Source: a virus. Taken from it: a stretch of 28,967 nucleotides of DNA. How positions within the stretch are numbered: position 1 is the stretch's first letter; the number at the start of each line of letters is the position of its first letter. Under the pieces are notes generated by a model. The model did no database searches. It worked only from the letters and a program-made list of their open reading frames with translations, and was not told the origin of the DNA. The stretch lies in the IMG/VR virus record IMGVR_UViG_3300008448_000450, positions 1 to 28,967 of that record; one strand, written 5' to 3'. The position numbers and the translations under genes were made by a program. Below, one piece after another: positions 19,002 through 28,967 of this stretch.

Positions 19002-20201
19002 ATGAGTATTTTTACAGTATTACCCGACGAAGATATCGTAGAAGCAAATCCAACAACGGTCACCTCTGGTATATGGTCAGGAGAAACGGGATCATTAGAA
19101 TCTGATTTATATATCTATGGTACGCAAGCAGATTCAAGCGGTGAATATTACTTAGACGTATATGCAGAAAATCCATCTGGTGAATTGGCAGAGCCACAAT
19201 TTGCTATAACATATGGGCATATAAATGGAGCAGGTGCACCAACCTTAGTAGATAATGAACAAGGAAAACTGCCAACAAAAGCAATATATAGTCAATATAG
19301 AAATTTACTATTAGATCCGTCTGAAACAAAATTCAAGTTTGAAGGTGTTGAATCGGATCATATTTATGTAATTAATTTCCAAAGAGCTAGATATAAAGAA
19401 CAGCTTGATGCTGGTAACTGGCAATTGCCATTGTCGGGTGCACGTGGAATATCTACGTTTATTGATGATAGTAATCAGACTCTTGGAGCACTAACCGGCA
19501 ATAGTAAAGCCGGTAGAGTGTTCTCGGTAGTATCCGGAACACTTGATACTACATCTGGTTCTATCACGGCATCTAGTAATCCAAAAACATGGGGTGACTC
19601 TGGTCCTGGTTACGGCCTAGTATATCCTGATCTAGGAATCATCGTATTAAATCCAAATGCAATTGGTCCTGCAGTTGGATTCTTTACAACGGCGTCATCA
19701 TCACCAGATACCGTTGCACCGGCTGCAAGCTTTACCGGAAGTAGCATGATAGACAGTTCTTCTGTATTAAATACATTAACAAAAGTAAAAGCGGAGACAG
19801 TAAAAATTCCATATGCACCGCTTATAGACCCACTAGCAGATTGGGGCACAAATTTATCTGCATACAATCATAATGGATTATATGTATCGCTCCAGTTAGC
19901 AGTAGCATCTCCCGCATATGTTGATGGGTTTAGAGCACGTTCTGCCGAAACAATTTCATCAACTCATTACTTTGTACGGTTAAGAAATAGACAATATAAC
20001 TATTCAAATAACCCTACATTTTATAATCCAGATAACGGAGCAATTATACAATCTGATTTTAAACAAAATCCACGAGTGTATATTACTACCGTTGGATTGT
20101 TTAATGATCAAAATGAATTGTTGGCGGTTGCCAAATTAAGTAAACCTGTTCCAAAGAGCTTTGACGAAGAAGTACTACTCCGTGTAAGACTTGATTTCTA
20201 A
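19002..20201 (+). CDS. virion protein, paralogue A of a two-member family
   Basis: 399 aa, beta-rich, no Cys. AGGA lies upstream of the ATG. N-terminal LPDEDIVEANPTTVTSGIWS and the mid-region INFQRARYKEQLDAGNWQLP ... YGLVYPDLGIIVLNP are followed by a C-terminal signature ITTVGLFNDQNELLAVAKLS (near 361-380) and a final FDEEVLLRVRLDF. The protein encoded at 20299 has the same order of elements and about 20 of 42 identical residues in the last 42. The shared tail probably forms a common docking or trimerisation unit, with divergent bodies. I do not recognise the family beyond resemblance to structural proteins of large T4-like phages. An intrinsic terminator follows 19 nt after its stop. Confidence 0.75.
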   Translation: MSIFTVLPDEDIVEANPTTVTSGIWSGETGSLESDLYIYGTQADSSGEYYLDVYAENPSGELAEPQFAITYGHINGAGAPTLVDNEQGKLPTKAIYSQYRNLLLDPSETKFKFEGVESDHIYVINFQRARYKEQLDAGNWQLPLSGARGISTFIDDSNQTLGALTGNSKAGRVFSVVSGTLDTTSGSITASSNPKTWGDSGPGYGLVYPDLGIIVLNPNAIGPAVGFFTTASSSPDTVAPAASFTGSSMIDSSSVLNTLTKVKAETVKIPYAPLIDPLADWGTNLSAYNHNGLYVSLQLAVASPAYVDGFRARSAETISSTHYFVRLRNRQYNYSNNPTFYNPDNGAIIQSDFKQNPRVYITTVGLFNDQNELLAVAKLSKPVPKSFDEEVLLRVRLDF

Positions 20202-20220
20202 AAAGCCATGATGTTTATTA

Positions 20221-20256
20221 ACAAAATAACCCTCGTAAGAGGGTTATTTTGTTTTT
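20221..20256 (+). terminator. strong Rho-independent terminator
   Basis: Perfect 14-bp stem: ACAAAATAACCCTC (20221-20234) pairs with GAGGGTTATTTTGT (20239-20252) around a GTAA loop, followed by a T-tract. The CCCTC/GAGGG core gives a stable top and the flanking A/T extends it; it may also work on the opposite strand. It ends the transcript of the 18321-20201 genes and precedes a new candidate promoter at 20264. Confidence 0.93.
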
Positions 20257-20263
20257 ATTCTAC

Positions 20264-20271
20264 TATTTATT
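20264..20271 (+). promoter_or_regulatory. candidate late promoter (TATTTATT)
   Basis: TATTTATT lies just downstream of the intrinsic terminator and ends 27 nt before the ATG at 20299. A promoter is needed here because the terminator cuts off the upstream transcript, making this the best-supported of the four motif copies. Confidence 0.55.
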
Positions 20272-20298
20272 AATGACCATTAACTTAACGTGTGACAA

Positions 20299-21219
20299 AT
20301 GAAAACATTTGGTACAATAGATTCAAAAGATTATAGCGTTGAAGAATTGTTTGTGTCATCACCTATGTCATGGGAATTGGTTTCTTCTTCAAACGGAATT
20401 CAAATCACTGTTCCAGATGATTTAGAAGGAGCAATTGTCTTTGATAAATGCTCTAAATATGGGTCGGCATCATTCAACAGCTATTCTGAAATAAATGAAT
20501 ATTATTTATATAGATCAGTAAAACATTTATTTTATACTAGTCCCGCTGTATTTTATAATAGCACAACATTACTTACGTCAAGTTTAGCACCGCTTGCTGA
20601 TAATTCTTATGTTATAAGCATTAGTCAAAACTTTTACGGAGAACGCATAAAGCCGGGGAGTTTTGAACTTAGCACAGAATTAAGCAATAAATATATACGT
20701 GATGATGGGTATGGCAATTTATTTGTTAGCCAATCTTCTACCGGATCATATGTAGGAAATATTTTTTATAAAAATGGGATTATTGTAATTAAAGAGGCAT
20801 CTGGCTCTACCATCACGACACTTTCGTCTGCGGGACTGAAGATAGTGGACAGTACAGAAATATATTTAGATTACAGTAGTGATGTAGAAATCACTCGACA
20901 CGAAGTAAATGTTAACGTACTTCCTACAGACTTTAATTTTTCTATATTCAACCCTACTATATTATCAACGTATACTGCAAGCGGTAGTTTTGGAAATGCA
21001 TTTATTAGTTCGATGGGTGATAGAAATATTAGACCAGCAAGTGGAAGTTCGACATGGAATTTATACAATTTAATGTCAACCGGTGTAATAAAACCCTATA
21101 TAACATCAATTGGTTTATATAATGAACAAAATCAGTTATTAGCAGTTGCTAAATTTAGCGAACCTATACAACGAACTTTTGATACAAACCAGATATTTAT
21201 AATTAGGTTTGATACATAA
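20299..21219 (+). CDS. virion protein, paralogue B of a two-member family
   Basis: 306 aa, Ser/Tyr-rich and beta-rich with one Cys. The middle carries ISQNFYGERIKPGSFELS (about 124-141), then an RDDGYGNLF turn and NIFYKNGIIVIKEA, which parallel the element order in the 399-aa protein. The C-terminal YITSIGLYNEQNQLLAVAKF and RTFDTNQIFIIRFDT align with the end of that paralogue. The N-terminal body is different. Likely a virion component that uses the same attachment tail as paralogue A. It has its own promoter candidate and lies beyond a terminator, so its level may be set independently. The ATG follows GTGACAA with a poor Shine-Dalgarno. Confidence 0.75.
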   Translation: MKTFGTIDSKDYSVEELFVSSPMSWELVSSSNGIQITVPDDLEGAIVFDKCSKYGSASFNSYSEINEYYLYRSVKHLFYTSPAVFYNSTTLLTSSLAPLADNSYVISISQNFYGERIKPGSFELSTELSNKYIRDDGYGNLFVSQSSTGSYVGNIFYKNGIIVIKEASGSTITTLSSAGLKIVDSTEIYLDYSSDVEITRHEVNVNVLPTDFNFSIFNPTILSTYTASGSFGNAFISSMGDRNIRPASGSSTWNLYNLMSTGVIKPYITSIGLYNEQNQLLAVAKFSEPIQRTFDTNQIFIIRFDT

Positions 21220-21233
21220 ACTTGGAGAATGGT

Positions 21234-21770
21234 ATGAACTTAGAACAACGATATATTGAATCTGTTGGAGGATATGTTGCTTTAGTAAAAACACAGCAAG
21301 CTGAACAAGCTGGTGTTAGAATTGGAGTAAATGCATTTGATGGTGCTGCAAGAGCACCGTTCAATCCTGCTCAAGCCTCGCCAGAAGACCAGTGGCAAAC
21401 TGAATTTAAGAGAAATGTTGCGGCATCATTTAGATATGGAAATGTTGGTCAAAATAATGTTGTTCCAGGTGCCGCTCTTACTAATGAGAATGGTGAGGGA
21501 GGATTATCTAGATTCACTTCACGTGCGGTAAAGTTTGCATTTAATGATGCAACTGGTAGAGCATCTATCTTGAATAGATTTAAGCAATTTAAACCATCAT
21601 CACCTGTGAAGTGGACAGATCCAACAACAAACGAATCATATGGAAGTTATCATAGATATACGCCAACGGTACTTAACTTCGTAACTAGTTTACCAAATGA
21701 AGTAGGTAGAGCGCGACCAAGAGTAGTTGGTCCGTCAAAAGGACCATCGCCAACAAGAATCGGCGGATAA
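21234..21770 (+). CDS. putative virion protein, unknown function
   Basis: 178 aa from the ATG at 21234, preceded by GGAG; an earlier in-frame TTG at 21222 overlaps that signal and is less likely. Basic, Gly/Ala/Asn-rich and without Cys. The N-terminal helix YIESVGGYVALVKTQQAEQA is followed by an extended middle (PFNPAQASPEDQWQTEFKRN; FRYGNVGQNNVVPG) and a basic C-terminus (RARPRVVGPSKGPSPTRIGG). I cannot assign a family. The basic, extended ends suggest a packing or linker component. It lies 14 nt after paralogue B, so it probably shares that transcript, and ends the structural block before the replication genes. Confidence 0.68.
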   Translation: MNLEQRYIESVGGYVALVKTQQAEQAGVRIGVNAFDGAARAPFNPAQASPEDQWQTEFKRNVAASFRYGNVGQNNVVPGAALTNENGEGGLSRFTSRAVKFAFNDATGRASILNRFKQFKPSSPVKWTDPTTNESYGSYHRYTPTVLNFVTSLPNEVGRARPRVVGPSKGPSPTRIGG

Positions 21771-21796
21771 TTTTTTAATTTTAAATAGGTTATAAC

Positions 21797-21943
21797 ATGG
21801 CTAATACTCCACGAAGTAGAAAATCAAATAGAACGTTTTCTAAAACAAGTGCAGTCAAACACAATGGTCGATCAGTGTGTGACGCTATCTATGGTAGGCA
21901 AAAAACTGCATATGGTTATGTGTGGAAAATACAAGAGGATTAA
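21797..21943 (+). CDS. 48-aa ORF with NUMOD1-like tail, possible homing-gene remnant
   Basis: A 48-codon ORF in a region otherwise free of genes. Its start MANTPRSRKSNRTF resembles the start of the next protein (MAANTPRGRKAKGREF). Its C-terminal half, SVCDAIYGRQKTAYGYVWKI (26-45), fits the NUMOD1 motif of homing endonucleases, typically ending in a K-x-x-x-G-Y-x-W-K pattern, a small helix-turn-helix that binds DNA. It could be a degenerate homing endonuclease whose nuclease part was lost, or a tiny DNA-binding protein of its own. Its stop is 4 nt before the next ATG. The TTATAAC upstream gives no clear ribosome binding site, so expression is uncertain. Confidence 0.55.
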   Translation: MANTPRSRKSNRTFSKTSAVKHNGRSVCDAIYGRQKTAYGYVWKIQED

Positions 21944-21947
21944 TATA

Positions 21948-22319
21948 ATGGCTGCAAATACCCCCCGTGGAAGAAAAGCAAAGGGAAGAGAATTTCAAAA
22001 TTTAATTAGAAAAAAATTATTGGAAGTGTTTCCTCAATTAGAAGGCGATGATATTAAATGTGCACTAATGTCTGAGTCTGGAGAAGATATAAAACTATCT
22101 CCATCTGCTAGAAAACTAATACCATACTCAATAGAAGCAAAACGGCAAGAAAAACTTAATATTTGGGCATCATTAGAACAGGCCGAAAAAAATACAAAAG
22201 ATCAAACATATCCTGTTTTATTTTTTAAACGCAATCGGTCAAAAATGTATGTTGCTCTTGAAGCTGAACATTTTTTTGATCTATTAAAAAAAATTCAATC
22301 AATTGACAACGCGCCGTGA
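21948..22319 (+). CDS. PD-(D/E)xK nuclease, Holliday-junction-resolvase-like
   Basis: 123 aa from ATG 21948; a longer reading from 21849 would start inside the 48-aa ORF and is rejected. The N-terminal RGRKAKGREFQNLIRKKLLE (7-26) is the basic helix typical of these phage nucleases. The active site reads SESGEDIKLSPSARKLIPYS (42-61) followed by IEAKRQEKLNIW (62-73). D47, E63 and K65 supply the D...E-x-K triad, and SLEQAEKN is the trailing helix with Gln78. Similar small phage proteins are annotated as putative Holliday junction resolvases or VRR-NUC-like nucleases. It would trim or resolve branched DNA during replication-recombination, in keeping with the primase and gp47/46 genes downstream. 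The end of this gene houses the promoter of the primase gene. Confidence 0.82.
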   Translation: MAANTPRGRKAKGREFQNLIRKKLLEVFPQLEGDDIKCALMSESGEDIKLSPSARKLIPYSIEAKRQEKLNIWASLEQAEKNTKDQTYPVLFFKRNRSKMYVALEAEHFFDLLKKIQSIDNAP

Positions 22320-22331
22320 GTATGTTATACT
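22303..22331 (+). promoter_or_regulatory. near-consensus sigma70-type promoter for primase (early)
   Basis: TTGACA (22303-22308), a 17-nt spacer, and TATACT (22326-22331), with an extended -10 TG at 22323-22324. The -10 ends at 22331, so the expected +1 is about 22338, the A of the primase ATG. It spans the last codons and stop of the nuclease gene. It is the only match of this quality I noticed in the window, and it points to early, host-polymerase-driven expression of primase and the recombination nuclease. Confidence 0.75.
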
Positions 22332-22337
22332 ATATGT

Positions 22338-23240
22338 ATGACTATACTACATCTTCTCCAAGACATATTAGGAAATTATAATCAACAAAAGGACGAGTAT
22401 TTATTTGCTTGTCCTTTTTGTTCTACTACAAAAAAGAAATTGTCCATCAACATTGTCACCAACAAATGGAAATGTTGGGTGTGTGGCAGTAAAGGTGGAC
22501 ACATATTGTGGCTACTAAAAAAATTAAATGTATCAAAAGATACTTTACAAAAATTTAAAGCAGAATTTAAGGATTCTGATATTAAGTCATATAAAGAAAC
22601 CACGGCAAATGTAGTATTACAATTACCTCCAGAATACAAACCCCTATGGAAGCAGGAAAATACTTATGGTTACTTACATGCGCTCAACTATCTTAGCAAA
22701 CGTAATATTACATTGGAAGACATTATCCGATATCGCATTGGATACTGTGAATCAGGTACGTATGCTAATAGAATTATACTTCCTTCATATGATAGAAATA
22801 ATCAACTCAATTATTTTACCGGACGGCTCTTTTATGATGGGGGAATGAAATATAAAAATCCTCCCGTATCGAAAAATATTATTTGTTTTGATAATATGAT
22901 TGATTGGAATGAACCAATTGTTTTGTGCGAAGGGATGTTTGATGCAATTGCCTTGCGTAGAAATGCAATTCCATTGATGGGTAAAACATTACCTTCTGCA
23001 ATCAAAAAACAACTGGTTGAAAATAATACAAAACATGTAACGATTTTTCTAGACGAAGACGCTCGCTCCGATGCACTAAAACTTGAACAACAGATTTCAC
23101 AGTATAACATAAATACGCGAGTAGTGTTTACTGTTGGAAAAGATGCTAGTGAAATGGGATTTGATGCGGCGTGGGAAGAAATTTCTGAAGCACGTTCAAC
23201 CAATTTTAAAGAATTTATTATACATGGGTTATCTAAATGA
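22338..23240 (+). CDS. 61: DNA primase, gp61-like (zinc finger + TOPRIM)
   Basis: 300 aa; T4 gp61 is 342 aa. It synthesises RNA primers for lagging-strand replication together with the gp41-type helicase. A zinc-binding domain is at the N-terminus: CPFC (25-28) and CWVC (46-49), with the KLSINIV strand between. The TOPRIM fold is in the C-terminal part: LCEGMFDAIALRR (196-208) with Glu198, and IFLDEDA (236-242) with the D-x-D acidic pair D239/D241, then VGKDASEM. No Shine-Dalgarno precedes the ATG, and no in-frame start lies upstream before the stop at 22317. The predicted transcription start coincides with the ATG, so the mRNA may be leaderless or nearly so. Its TGA overlaps the ATG of the next gene (ATGA), coupling primase to the recombination nuclease. 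Confidence 0.92.
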   Translation: MTILHLLQDILGNYNQQKDEYLFACPFCSTTKKKLSINIVTNKWKCWVCGSKGGHILWLLKKLNVSKDTLQKFKAEFKDSDIKSYKETTANVVLQLPPEYKPLWKQENTYGYLHALNYLSKRNITLEDIIRYRIGYCESGTYANRIILPSYDRNNQLNYFTGRLFYDGGMKYKNPPVSKNIICFDNMIDWNEPIVLCEGMFDAIALRRNAIPLMGKTLPSAIKKQLVENNTKHVTIFLDEDARSDALKLEQQISQYNINTRVVFTVGKDASEMGFDAAWEEISEARSTNFKEFIIHGLSK

Positions 23241-26200
23241 AAATAAACGTTCCATTTAAGAAATTAAAGCATATTGTACATATAGCAGATGTTCATATTC
23301 GATTATTTCAACGCCACGAAGAATATGAACTCGCATTTCAAACTTTATATGACGATATTAAAGCAAAAAACCTAACAGATTTTGTTATTTATTTGGCTGG
23401 CGACATTGCACATTCAAAAACAGACATCTCACCAGAGATGATTCAAGTAACATCTAATTTTTTATCAAAAATTGCTGATATTGCGCCGACAATTATGATT
23501 GCCGGAAATCACGATTGTAATTTATCTAATCTAAATAGATTAGATGCATTAACACCAATTGTAGACAGTCTGAAACATCCAAATTTACATTATTTACGAG
23601 ACACGACAACCGCGTATCTGGCCGATACAGCGTTTGTCGTGTTTTCTATCTTAGACAATCCAGAAAATTGGCCTACCGCAGATCAAATTAACAGTAATGT
23701 TACTAATAAAATAGTATTATATCATGGCCCAATTCAAGGAGCCATGACTGATTCAAATCATGCGATAACAGATTCTCATATTAATATTAATAAATTTGAT
23801 GGATTCGATTTAGCGTTGCTCGGAGATATTCATCGACATCAAATATTACAAGAATACGATTCGTTAAATAAGAAGCCAATTGTAGCATATGCATCATCAT
23901 TAATTCAGCAAAATCATGGAGAATTAATTGATGGGCATGGATGGTGTTTATGGGATATTCCAACTAAAACTGTTGAATTTAATTCATTAAAGAACGATTA
24001 TTGTTTTTCAACGATTGAAGTGGTAAATGGCGTTATGACATACCCAACCACTATGTCAAAGAATGTACGTGCACGTATTTTTTATCAAAATACTACGTTA
24101 CTAGAAACAAAGCGATTGGTTGAAATACTTCACCAACAATATAATTTCTTAGATAAAAAGTTCGCTCCGAAAAAGAATTATTCACATGATCCAAAACACA
24201 GCGTGATGCCGCATCATGATGTGTTAGATTTAACAAATGTGTCTGTTCAAAATCAATTAATTCAAGATTGGATTCTTCGAAATCAATTAAACATCAACAC
24301 CAATGTATTAGGTGCTATCAATAAAATTAATCGTGAGATAAATACGAAAATTTCACATGAAGATTATTCTAGAAGTATTCGCTGGCGTCCGCTGAAGTTT
24401 AAATTTGATAATATGTTCTCGTATGGAGAACGTAATGAAATAAATTTTGAAAATTTAAATGGATTGTATGGAATCTTTGCACCAAACGCATCCGGAAAAA
24501 GTTCTATCATGGATGCATTAATGTTTTGTTTATACGACAAGACTTCTCGCGCATTCAAAGGCGATCATATTATTAACAATAGAAAGGATACGTTTTTTTG
24601 TGAACTAACCTTTCAGATTAATAATGAAGTATTTGGTATAAAGCGCAGCGGTACTCGTAAAAAAAGCGGAGATGTTAAAGTAGATGTAGAATTTTGGAAA
24701 TGGGTAGAAGGAGTTCCCGTAACTCTTAACGGAGAAGATCGAAGAGACACAAATGCGATCATACGTTCTTATATCGGAAGCTATGAAGATTTTGTTATGA
24801 CTGCAATGAGCGGACAACAGGGAACATCTATGTTTGTAGACAAATCTCACGCGGAACGAAAAGATTTACTCATACAGTTCATGGGGTTAAATATATTTGA
24901 TAAGTTATTTGATGCTGCTCATGAAGAAAATAAAGAAATTGCCGGTATTTTGAAACGTTTTAAGAAGTCAGACGTAACCGACCAACTTACAGAAATACAG
25001 CAAAGCCTCATAAAAGTCACGGATAGAATTGAAGAATTTGAATCAGGAAAAGAAACGTTTACACAGACGTTATTAGAAATAGAAAATCAATATAAACAAA
25101 AATATGCAACGAAGCGACCGGTTCCAGAAACTTCCGGAAATTGGTCAGATTTACAAAATAGATTGACAACTACTGAAAAGAAGTTAAAAACTGCACAAGA
25201 AGATGTGGCGATTGCAGAATATGCATTGATTTCTAGCGAAACAGATTTGAAAGAAGTTGTCACAGAGTTCAGTAATTATGATATGGCGGCATTAAAAGTA
25301 TCGTTTGATAAGTGGAACGAATTAAATGAATTATTAAAGAAGAAAAATAACAGTATTCGTATATTGAATACCAAGATTCAAGAAAAGACCGTATTCAAGA
25401 CAAAATTGGAAGCGTATAAGTATAATCCAAATTGTGATGTGTGCGTAGAAAATAATCGTTCTGTTATCGAAGATGTTAAATTGGTCAACGAGGAATTAGA
25501 CAACTTACATGCAGAACGAATTATTGAAGAAGATGCAGTTCGCACGGTTATCAGCGAATGTGATGAACATGCATGGAATAAAGATTCGTATGAAGAAGCA
25601 CTTCTCCTTCAAAAAGAATTAGTAGAACTTGGACAAGCAGTAGAAAAATCAAAAAACGTATTGGCTACAGCAAAAAATACGTTAGAAAAAGTAGAAATTT
25701 TACTTGGTAAAATTCACGATGAAATTTCCGTTTATAAAACAAACGAAGAAAACATTCTACATAACCAAACAGTGGAGAAAGAACTCCAAGTAATACATCG
25801 TAATATTGCAGATACCAAACAAAATATTGCTAATATAGACCGAGAACTTCGTTTGTTGCACGGAGATATTTCTGTATTAAATGCTAAAAATGATGAGTTA
25901 ACAAATAAATTGAAGGAAATAGAACAATTTGAACTCTCTCACGAGGCATATAAGTATTACATGACGGCAGTTAATAGAGATGGAATTCCTTATGAATTAA
26001 TTTCAAAAGCTATTCCATCAATACAAGCAGAAATCAATAATATCCTTGCTCAATTGGTAAAATTTGAGGTATCGTTAGAAGTTGATGGAAAAAATATTAA
26101 TAGTAAATTAACATATGATAATGATAGAGTTTGGCCGTTAGAAAATGGCTCTGGAATGGAGCGATTCATAAGTAGTTTGGCAATTAGAGTGGCATTGATG

Positions 26201-26419
26201 AATGCCAGCAATCTACCAAAACCAAATTTTATAATGATAGATGAAGGATTTGGCGTATTGGATAAAGAAAATCTACATTCTATGCAAATATTATTTAATT
26301 TACTTAAAACTCATTTTGACTTTATACTTATAATAAGTCACTTAGATACCGCACGAGATATGGTAGATAGTGTAATAGAAATAGAAAATTCAAATGGATT
26401 TTCTAAAATATTAGTTTAA
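23237..26419 (+). CDS. 47-46: gp47-gp46 (SbcD-SbcC / Mre11-Rad50) single-chain fusion nuclease
   Basis: 1060 aa. Residues 1-340 are a Mre11/gp47 phosphoesterase with all metal motifs: IADVHIR (16-22), AGDIAH (54-59), AGNHDC (89-94), YHGP (162-165) and LGDIHRHQ (195-202). Residues 380-1060 are a Rad50/gp46 ATPase: Walker A APNASGKSS (415-423), Q-loop MSGQQ (524-528), long coiled coils with a zinc hook CDVC (733-736), an unusual signature NGSGMERF (970-977), Walker B IMIDEGFGVLD (999-1009) and switch His1035 (IISH). In T4 these are two genes (339 + 560 aa). Here the frame is open throughout, with no stop or obvious restart at the junction. It would resect DNA ends for recombination-dependent replication and host DNA breakdown. 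Translationally coupled to primase (ATGA). Confidence 0.95.
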   Translation: MKINVPFKKLKHIVHIADVHIRLFQRHEEYELAFQTLYDDIKAKNLTDFVIYLAGDIAHSKTDISPEMIQVTSNFLSKIADIAPTIMIAGNHDCNLSNLNRLDALTPIVDSLKHPNLHYLRDTTTAYLADTAFVVFSILDNPENWPTADQINSNVTNKIVLYHGPIQGAMTDSNHAITDSHININKFDGFDLALLGDIHRHQILQEYDSLNKKPIVAYASSLIQQNHGELIDGHGWCLWDIPTKTVEFNSLKNDYCFSTIEVVNGVMTYPTTMSKNVRARIFYQNTTLLETKRLVEILHQQYNFLDKKFAPKKNYSHDPKHSVMPHHDVLDLTNVSVQNQLIQDWILRNQLNINTNVLGAINKINREINTKISHEDYSRSIRWRPLKFKFDNMFSYGERNEINFENLNGLYGIFAPNASGKSSIMDALMFCLYDKTSRAFKGDHIINNRKDTFFCELTFQINNEVFGIKRSGTRKKSGDVKVDVEFWKWVEGVPVTLNGEDRRDTNAIIRSYIGSYEDFVMTAMSGQQGTSMFVDKSHAERKDLLIQFMGLNIFDKLFDAAHEENKEIAGILKRFKKSDVTDQLTEIQQSLIKVTDRIEEFESGKETFTQTLLEIENQYKQKYATKRPVPETSGNWSDLQNRLTTTEKKLKTAQEDVAIAEYALISSETDLKEVVTEFSNYDMAALKVSFDKWNELNELLKKKNNSIRILNTKIQEKTVFKTKLEAYKYNPNCDVCVENNRSVIEDVKLVNEELDNLHAERIIEEDAVRTVISECDEHAWNKDSYEEALLLQKELVELGQAVEKSKNVLATAKNTLEKVEILLGKIHDEISVYKTNEENILHNQTVEKELQVIHRNIADTKQNIANIDRELRLLHGDISVLNAKNDELTNKLKEIEQFELSHEAYKYYMTAVNRDGIPYELISKAIPSIQAEINNILAQLVKFEVSLEVDGKNINSKLTYDNDRVWPLENGSGMERFISSLAIRVALMNASNLPKPNFIMIDEGFGVLDKENLHSMQILFNLLKTHFDFILIISHLDTARDMVDSVIEIENSNGFSKILV

Positions 26420-26431
26420 ATGAGAGTATAA

Positions 26432-28906
26432 ATGGCAAGAACTAGAAAAGCTATACAACCATTAAATTTAAATAAATACGATGTTTTAATTGAAGATAAA
26501 GGACCACGATCCGAATACTTTAAATTATCTCAGTTTGATGGGTATTTATATGGTGGTAGAAATGCTTTTCTTATAGCAGGTGCAAATGTTTTAAAACCAA
26601 ATTCAACAATTTTAGTAGAAATTCTAAATAAGGAAGGAACTACGGTATATAGTGCACCGATTCCTTCCTTTTTAGAAGGAAATTCTAGATTAATACAAAT
26701 AGACGTATATTCAGATACTCCTATTGGAGTAGGCAAGCTAGTAATTTTAGGCAGTGCGAATACCTACATTGATGGCACCGGTATTCCAGACAACTGGATT
26801 AATAAATACAATGTGCGATGGGAATCCGATGTAATTATATCTCCTCTCGTAGAAAATAAAACTACCCTTCGGTTCCAAAAAACTCCAGAACTGTTTGTTC
26901 AAGAAAAATTTTATCCAATCACCGCTACTTCATCCTTTTCACAGTCAGTAACAGTTGATTCCGGTGATTATGATTTAAATCCAATAAATTTTAATATTTA
27001 TCAAAATGGATATTTAATTAAGTTAAAAAACCCAACTCCAACTAACGTATTCACTTCTGATCAGTTGGGTGGAAATCTAGTTACACAAATTTCAACACCC
27101 GTAGTATCGGAAGTATTTTCTGGAAGACTTCCACTTACAAAAATTTTAAATAGCACTACGGCAGAATCACGGGGTGCATTCCTAACTAGTAGTTTAAATA
27201 CAGTTATATCGAAAGGATTCGTAAGTGGATCTGGGTCGGGATATGTTACGCAATTAGAACCCCTTGGATTTATCACAGCAAGTACTAGCGTAGCAAATGT
27301 TATTTATCAAAAAATACAAGAGAGTCCTGACACTGGATCAGTAGTATCATTTGCAAAACTTAAGCTTACAAATTTAAATACCTTATCGGGTGAAATTCAT
27401 AAAATACGAGTTTCGTATAAAGCTTCTACTGAGCCCGGTGATTATGTCGCGCTTGCAGACATTCCTGCACAAGTAGAAGAATTATTGGCTGTTGACAGTG
27501 GAAGTAAAATTGTAAACGTAGGCCAATTTAATAAAATTAAAATATCTGATTACTGGTATGCGGCAACAATGTCGTTGTCAAAAGATGAAAGTTTTCCGAC
27601 ACTACCTGCATATTATTTAACCTCATCATACGGAAACTTAAGTGTATCGCAATCTTCGCAAGTGCTTATTGACGCGGCATACACAATTCCCGAATTACAA
27701 AATAATACATTCAAAGACAATCGTTCCTATTTTATAGGAACTAAGAATGATATTCCTATCGAATTATTCGCAAACAGTGAATATACGTTAAAGTTTGATG
27801 CGATTGTATCAAAATTATCAGCATCACTTGAATTGATCCAATCAGATTATTCTGTCGAAGTGTATTTAACAGAACATCCAGATTCTCCCAAAACATTATT
27901 AAGTACCGATACTCGTGGACAGCTACTAGGGACGCTCACTCCACTTTCTACATTTAAAAAACAGTTCTTTGAAAATGTTCAATTAAACTTTAAGCCAAAT
28001 ATAATAAAATCTGGTAAATTTTCTTTACGGTTTATTGTGTATGGTGGGTTTTGGAACATTTCAAATATGTCATTAAAAGTAGCACAAGAAAATTTATTCA
28101 GTCCTGATGAAATTAGTGTACTAGTGCCAAATGTTAATTTTTCTAATAAACTGTTGACATTTAAAACAGAATATTTGGATATTAACAATAATTCTACGGG
28201 TATTTTTACACTAAGTTCACCAACATATTTTATAGGATCAACGCCGGTTGTAGGAACTGGAAATACCACTACGGTTAGTGGATTCCCATTTACGGGAAGT
28301 GCAATTATTACCGGAAGTCTTTCAATAACCGGATCATTTGCATTTACCGAAGGTGGCACGTATGTTACCGGCTCGGCGTCTCTCGCTGATATTGATAGTG
28401 CTGTTATTGCATCAACCTCACAGTATTTAGTGTTATCTCAAAGTGCAAATTTAAGCAACGAACGAATTTTATCATTATCAAGCAGATTTTCTGCAAGCGA
28501 TGGTGGGGCAAATAATAATTATTCGGTAGATTTATCGAATAATATGAGAACGTCTACGGTTGGAATAATTATAGATGGGGGTGAAACGGAAATAACCACT
28601 GGAGAAAAATCTGAAATATTAATCCCATTTAGTGGAAGTATACAATCATGGGCGCTACTCGCAGATAGATCGGGAAGTATTACGATTGATATCTGGAAAA
28701 GTACATATGCAACATATCCACCAACGGCATCTGATAGTATTGTGGCATCAGAAAAACCATTTATATCTGCAAGTGTGAAAAATACATCGTCGTCATTAGT
28801 AGGATGGACTGCCTCTATAAATAAAAATGATACATTAAAATTTTATGTATCGGCAAGTAGTACTATACAACGTGTGAATTTAACTTTGGAACTTCTACGA
28901 TTATGA
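26432..28906 (+). CDS. large virion/tail-fibre-like protein
   Basis: 824 aa, beta-rich, no Cys. The N-terminal 150 residues (NKYDVLIEDKGPRSEYFKLS; YLYGGRNAFLIAGANVLKPN; DVYSDTPIGVGKLVILGS) resemble an attachment domain found at the start of long structural proteins in T4-like phages. The middle is Ser/Thr-rich beta. About residues 620-650 have a hexad TGS pattern (TGSAII, TGSLSI, TGSFAF, TEGGTYV, TGSASL) suggestive of a small beta-helix or trimeric stalk. The last 110 residues form a jelly-roll-like head (GSIQSWALLADRSGSITIDI; KNDTLKFYVSA). A fibre or spike with an N-terminal dock, a stalk and a C-terminal binding head is the best inference. It begins 12 nt after the fusion nuclease and its stop overlaps the next ATG. 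Confidence 0.75.
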   Translation: MARTRKAIQPLNLNKYDVLIEDKGPRSEYFKLSQFDGYLYGGRNAFLIAGANVLKPNSTILVEILNKEGTTVYSAPIPSFLEGNSRLIQIDVYSDTPIGVGKLVILGSANTYIDGTGIPDNWINKYNVRWESDVIISPLVENKTTLRFQKTPELFVQEKFYPITATSSFSQSVTVDSGDYDLNPINFNIYQNGYLIKLKNPTPTNVFTSDQLGGNLVTQISTPVVSEVFSGRLPLTKILNSTTAESRGAFLTSSLNTVISKGFVSGSGSGYVTQLEPLGFITASTSVANVIYQKIQESPDTGSVVSFAKLKLTNLNTLSGEIHKIRVSYKASTEPGDYVALADIPAQVEELLAVDSGSKIVNVGQFNKIKISDYWYAATMSLSKDESFPTLPAYYLTSSYGNLSVSQSSQVLIDAAYTIPELQNNTFKDNRSYFIGTKNDIPIELFANSEYTLKFDAIVSKLSASLELIQSDYSVEVYLTEHPDSPKTLLSTDTRGQLLGTLTPLSTFKKQFFENVQLNFKPNIIKSGKFSLRFIVYGGFWNISNMSLKVAQENLFSPDEISVLVPNVNFSNKLLTFKTEYLDINNNSTGIFTLSSPTYFIGSTPVVGTGNTTTVSGFPFTGSAIITGSLSITGSFAFTEGGTYVTGSASLADIDSAVIASTSQYLVLSQSANLSNERILSLSSRFSASDGGANNNYSVDLSNNMRTSTVGIIIDGGETEITTGEKSEILIPFSGSIQSWALLADRSGSITIDIWKSTYATYPPTASDSIVASEKPFISASVKNTSSSLVGWTASINKNDTLKFYVSASSTIQRVNLTLELLRL

Positions 28907-28967
28907 TAATATACGAACAGAATTTTTTTGGTCTTACTACTTCGAATTTTCAATCAAATTTTAAATC
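28903..28967 (+). CDS. start of next gene (partial, truncated by window end)
   Basis: An ATG at 28903 overlaps the TGA of the preceding gene (ATGA) and stays open to the end of the window, giving 21 codons starting MIIYEQNFFGLTTSNFQ. The overlap matches the coupling used elsewhere here. Too short to identify; probably another structural protein of the same operon. Confidence 0.6.
   Translation, partial: MIIYEQNFFGLTTSNFQSNFK

Follow-up and report, generated by a model that had tools for sequence, protein, structure and literature searches.

The window, that is the whole stretch of DNA analysed (28,967 nucleotides; IMG/VR virus record IMGVR_UViG_3300008448_000450), carries at 23237-26419 on the plus strand a single ATG-initiated frame of 1060 codons with no internal stop. 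The frame, its parts and the two genes preceding it are as follows.

21849-22319, plus strand: RusA-like Holliday junction resolvase or PDDEXK-like gene (PHROG 244, E 4.4e-17; weak match to PDDEXK_15)
22338-23240, plus strand: DNA primase-like gene, overlapping the fusion gene by 4 bases (PHROG 47, E 5.7e-42)
23237-26419, plus strand: fused Mre11-Rad50 (SbcD-SbcC) gene, 1060 amino acids (frame, Pfam, PHROG, whole-length relatives)
23237-23956, plus strand: calcineurin-like nuclease domain, residues 1-240 (Pfam Metallophos, residue conservation, structural match to SbcD/Mre11)
within 23237-23956, plus strand: key residues of the nuclease domain D18, H20, D56, N91, H92, H163, D197 and H199 (conservation)
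23822-23839, plus strand: motif V, GDIHRH, residues 196-201 (profile alignment to Thermotoga maritima Mre11)
23957-24172, plus strand: capping domain, residues 241-312 (secondary structure of the model, match to 7dog)
24173-24229, plus strand: flexible linker, residues 313-331 (pLDDT below 50 at 314-327; low identity to the nearest relative)
24230-24352, plus strand: helix-loop-helix, presumed to bind Rad50, residues 332-372 (model helices; position as in canonical Mre11, PMC3175470)
24347-24388, plus strand: fusion junction, residues 371-384 (conservation)
24380-24916, plus strand: Rad50 ATPase lobe I, residues 382-560, with Walker A (417-423) and Q527 (Pfam, conservation, structural matches)
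24917-25972, plus strand: coiled coils carrying the zinc hook, residues 561-912 (modelled as long helices)
25433-25444, plus strand: zinc hook C733-D-V-C736 (both cysteines in 83/83 sequences)
25973-26416, plus strand: Rad50 ATPase lobe II, residues 913-1060, with signature, Walker B and switch histidine (conservation, structural matches)
26150-26161, plus strand: signature SGME, residues 972-975 (M in 79/83, the other three positions invariant)

The earlier note on this DNA had read the 1060 unbroken codons as a fusion of an Mre11-type nuclease with a Rad50-type ATPase, and both the frame and the identity of its two parts were borne out. Pfam Metallophos matched residues 12-200 (E 1.4e-8) and AAA_23 residues 390-635 (E 5.7e-14), while PHROG 77 (SbcC-like) covered residues 375-1058. 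The NCBIfam models sbcc and sbcd also matched, far below their cut-offs, as expected of a divergent phage protein.

The fold of the protein was predicted with AlphaFold from an alignment of 55 sequences (mean pLDDT 85.5; pTM of the single-chain model 0.47). In the model the nuclease core is followed by capping strands that reach about residue 312. A stretch of low confidence (314-327) and helices at 335-349 and 355-370 come next. The ATPase opens with a strand at 382 and continues into long coiled coils, which carry the CxxC at 733-736; lobe II makes up the remainder of the chain. In VIA-align comparisons SbcD/Mre11 structures matched about residues 4-319 with Z values of 23.6-25.4, among them the nuclease-capping structure of Staphylococcus aureus SbcD (7dog; residues 10-310, Z 25.4), and SbcC/Rad50 heads matched residues 382-1060 with Z up to 30.9. 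The top viral matches were proteins of the mimivirus relatives Tupanvirus, Harvfovirus and Catovirus with about 1100-1400 aligned columns, annotated as DNA-repair proteins or exonucleases and covered for the most part by the alignment; phage proteins came next.

The model also corrects the position of the linker. Residues 340-385, where it had been placed before, are mostly taken up by the predicted helix-loop-helix, and the disordered linker lies at about 313-331 instead. In canonical Mre11 a helix-loop-helix at the corresponding position binds the base of the Rad50 coiled coil (PMC3175470), and judged by its position the segment 332-372 presumably does the same. With the helix-loop-helix ending at 370 and the ATPase beginning at 382 in the model, the covalent junction comprises some 11 residues, similar in length to the linker of nine to twelve residues calculated for a fusion in PMC3175470. 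Residues 371-384 share 64% identity with the nearest relative, compared with 21% in the preceding linker, and W383 is invariant (n = 55 sequences). A conserved junction is what would be expected if the fusion is functional.

Relatives of the locus came from scans of IMG/VR, for which the queries were the complete protein and five aligned relatives; with the record of Microcystis phage Mel-JY01 included, 84 loci were obtained. Nuclease and ATPase share one frame of about 1010-1090 codons in 82 of them. Of the remaining two, one is truncated where its contig ends; in the other (L003/L124; IMGVR_UViG_3300030107_005493, contig 28198-31337) the frame breaks near residue 440, which may be due to a frameshift of the contig or to a real split. 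Because a full-length query is biased toward fusions, searches with each half of the protein were run as an offset, and the lists, each limited to the top 80 out of over 550 confirmed candidates, cover near relatives, not all phages. Among the best 80 for the nuclease half, 76 were scored as fused by script, a further two (L113 and L115) have frames of 1053 amino acids, and the last two run off their contigs; for the ATPase half 79 of 80 were fused and one ran off its contig. Thus every locus in these lists of the best 80 that lies clear of contig ends is fused. When genome contigs were searched for near relatives with separate genes, just two nuclease-only frames came up (L247 and L248, 33% identity), and neither has an adjoining ATPase match. 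Megablast of window positions 20000-28967 against phages gave no match. The idea that the fusion is confined to the genome of the window was rejected on the 84 loci and the half-query lists.

A sequencing or assembly error that merged neighbouring 47-like and 46-like genes was weighed against a genuine fusion. Split phages do keep the nuclease and ATPase genes as neighbours or near neighbours, and the related contig with the break near residue 440 also speaks for an error. Yet the same unbroken frame recurs in 82 of the 84 loci, drawn from many metagenomes and including the cultured Mel-JY01, and the junction is conserved in independent genomes. At 24250-24400, the stretch that the earlier note had singled out for such a check, there is no reason to suspect a stop or frameshift; relatives read through it in frame with at most single-residue insertions or deletions. 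We consider the error refuted, with a vanishingly small probability left to it, and the fusion genuine.

On the other hand, the novelty implied by the earlier note did not survive the very survey with separate halves that it had named as the counter-test, in which the fusion proved common in related phages. Mre11/Rad50 fusions were described in Mimivirus, Bacillus phage 0305phi8-36, bacteria, plasmids and eukaryotes by Yoshida, Claverie and Ogata in 2011 (PMC3175470), who found homologues of the Mimivirus protein R555 to be abundant in aquatic viral fractions and phage-like marine sequences, with GOS scaffolds carrying phage-type primases. The window protein belongs to this known, R555-like kind of fusion, and among the near relatives surveyed here the fusion is the normal state in environmental aquatic phages. 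R555 resembles it in an N-terminal Mre11-like and a C-terminal Rad50-like part, a short junction and an aspartate in place of His206 of PfMre11; it differs in its length of 1351 amino acids, its longer coiled coils and its origin from a eukaryotic virus. In the literature searched we found no biochemistry of R555-like fusions.

The fusion of Mel-JY01 (PP395634.1, 183173-186373, WWT39521.1), which carries no annotation beyond 'AAA domain containing protein', has the same family and architecture, with 36% identity over 99% of the chain. As in the window a primase-like gene lies upstream, but a small gene separates it from the fusion. The complete Mel-JY01 genome has a sole Metallophos and a sole AAA_23 match, both in the fusion, which makes it the only detected Mre11-Rad50 of this phage. 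Literature searches on Mel-JY01 and on Mre11-Rad50 fusion with phage returned nothing.

T4 gp47/gp46 and bacterial SbcD/SbcC consist of the same domains and motif sets, but are encoded by two genes each; in T4 the order is 47, 46.2, 46.1, 46, motif V is GHFH and the signature SEGE. In a tree that includes 20 fused proteins and six split ones but not R555, 19 of the fused proteins form one group with support 100/99. The remaining one, of Xanthomonas phage XacN1 (BBA65453.1, L008:1161-4460), is likewise a nuclease-ATPase fusion of 1099 amino acids, but it sits with the split proteins of T4 and a cyanophage (100/99) and has GHFH at motif V and the signature SAGQ. Its placement implies a second, separate fusion event; the deep order of the tree is uncertain because of long branches. 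The XacN1 protein is annotated just as 'recombination endonuclease subunit'.

A variant of the fused gene was seen in LR756508.1 (L005:8600-9640), an uncultured phage of 484 kb, where about 0.9 kb splits the gene just after motif V. The insert holds a frame of 305 amino acids that is zinc-ribbon and nuclease-like, and is perhaps an intron or a homing-endonuclease insertion. An Rfam search of the window and of this locus gave no match.

We then compared the catalytic motifs across 83 fused sequences. Walker A (NASGKSS, 417-423), Q527, C733/C736, S972-G-M-E975, D1002/E1003 and H1035 are near-invariant, and the metal-ligand positions D18, D56, N91, H92, H163 and H199 are invariant. Two deviant members were also noted: L244, on a contig of a Flavobacteriales MAG, has SGAE as its signature and no CxxC in its hook region, and L139 has SGSE. 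The signature had been singled out earlier as altered. It does depart from SGGE, but SGME is the norm of the family (79/83), and other split phage proteins besides T4 gp46 likewise depart from SGGE.

The description of both motif sets as complete stands for Rad50, but not for the phosphoesterase. There every ligand position is kept except the first histidine of motif V, which reads G196-D-I-H199 and aligns to GHIH of Thermotoga maritima Mre11 in the profile alignment. D197 is an aspartate in all 83 fused sequences, and R555 has Asp242 where PfMre11 has His206 (PMC3175470). GDLH also occurs at motif V in split nucleases of T5-like phages (L250/L252, Vibrio JSF10 and Providencia PSTCR5); the change from His to Asp is thus not tied to the fusion. 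In 9 of the 83 sequences (L001 and eight others) H20 is replaced by Gln, so that motif I reads DIQ, not DIH.

Without the canonical first histidine of motif V full nuclease activity is not assured, and the chain could have a mainly structural or regulatory role, with motif V and SGME making the nuclease weak or inactive while ATPase and coiled coil bridge DNA ends. The uniform D197 and the loss of the metal-ligand position H20 in some relatives would fit such a role. Yet an aspartate is able to bind metal, the T5-like split nucleases carry the same change, and the invariance of the other six ligand positions would not be expected of a dead nuclease. A mainly structural or regulatory role is thus unlikely.

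We favor the view that the protein is very probably a single-chain Mre11-Rad50 nuclease of the R555-like type that processes DNA ends in phage recombination and replication. Mre11-Rad50 complexes assemble as M2R2 and process DNA ends in an ATP-gated manner. In the predicted fold the fused chain runs from nuclease and capping domain through flexible linker and helix-loop-helix to lobe I, the coiled coil with the zinc hook and lobe II. Two chains would pair via their nuclease domains, their ATP-bound heads and their zinc hooks into an M2R2 assembly, where the covalent junction of about 11 residues would supplement the usual contact between Mre11 and Rad50. ATP cycling would then gate the processing of DNA ends, and the phage may use the resected ends for recombination-dependent replication or to repair its genome, as with T4 gp46/47.

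The gene neighbourhood bears on this role. A primase homologue on the same strand was found in 83 of the 84 related loci, usually directly upstream and mostly less than 100 bases from the match. The other genes of the window code for baseplate and further virion proteins; a gene similar to IMP dehydrogenase / GMP reductase lies within this structural region at 849-1880 (Pfam E 6e-103). Of the T4-like gene order claimed at first, the domain order from nuclease to ATPase holds. The neighbours do not: the genes next to 46 in T4 are 45.2, rpbA and the clamp genes, while primase, RusA-like resolvase and structural genes surround the fusion. The same neighbours, with no known defence genes among them, argue against a fused chain that counters host defence or degrades host DNA instead of serving phage recombination. 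T4 gp46/47 are annotated as needed both for recombination and to break down host DNA, and the ATPase half is matched by the profile of LmuB, the ATPase of Lamassu, but any Rad50-like ATPase should give such a match. We regard this function as very improbable and retain end processing for the phage's own recombination and replication.

It is conceivable, though we would rather doubt it, that the R555-like fusions in aquatic phages form a branch of their own in biochemical terms, which would be obligately single-chain, use an aspartate as motif V ligand and SGME as signature, keep a fixed primase-nuclease pair and provide the only end-resection enzyme of these phages. The result is modest and leaves the picture of phage recombination unchanged. 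Nevertheless, a single-chain Mre11-Rad50 with its fixed 1:1 stoichiometry would be handy for structural and single-molecule studies, and the wide spread of the fusion beside a primase gives the metagenomic observation of 2011 a firm genomic context.
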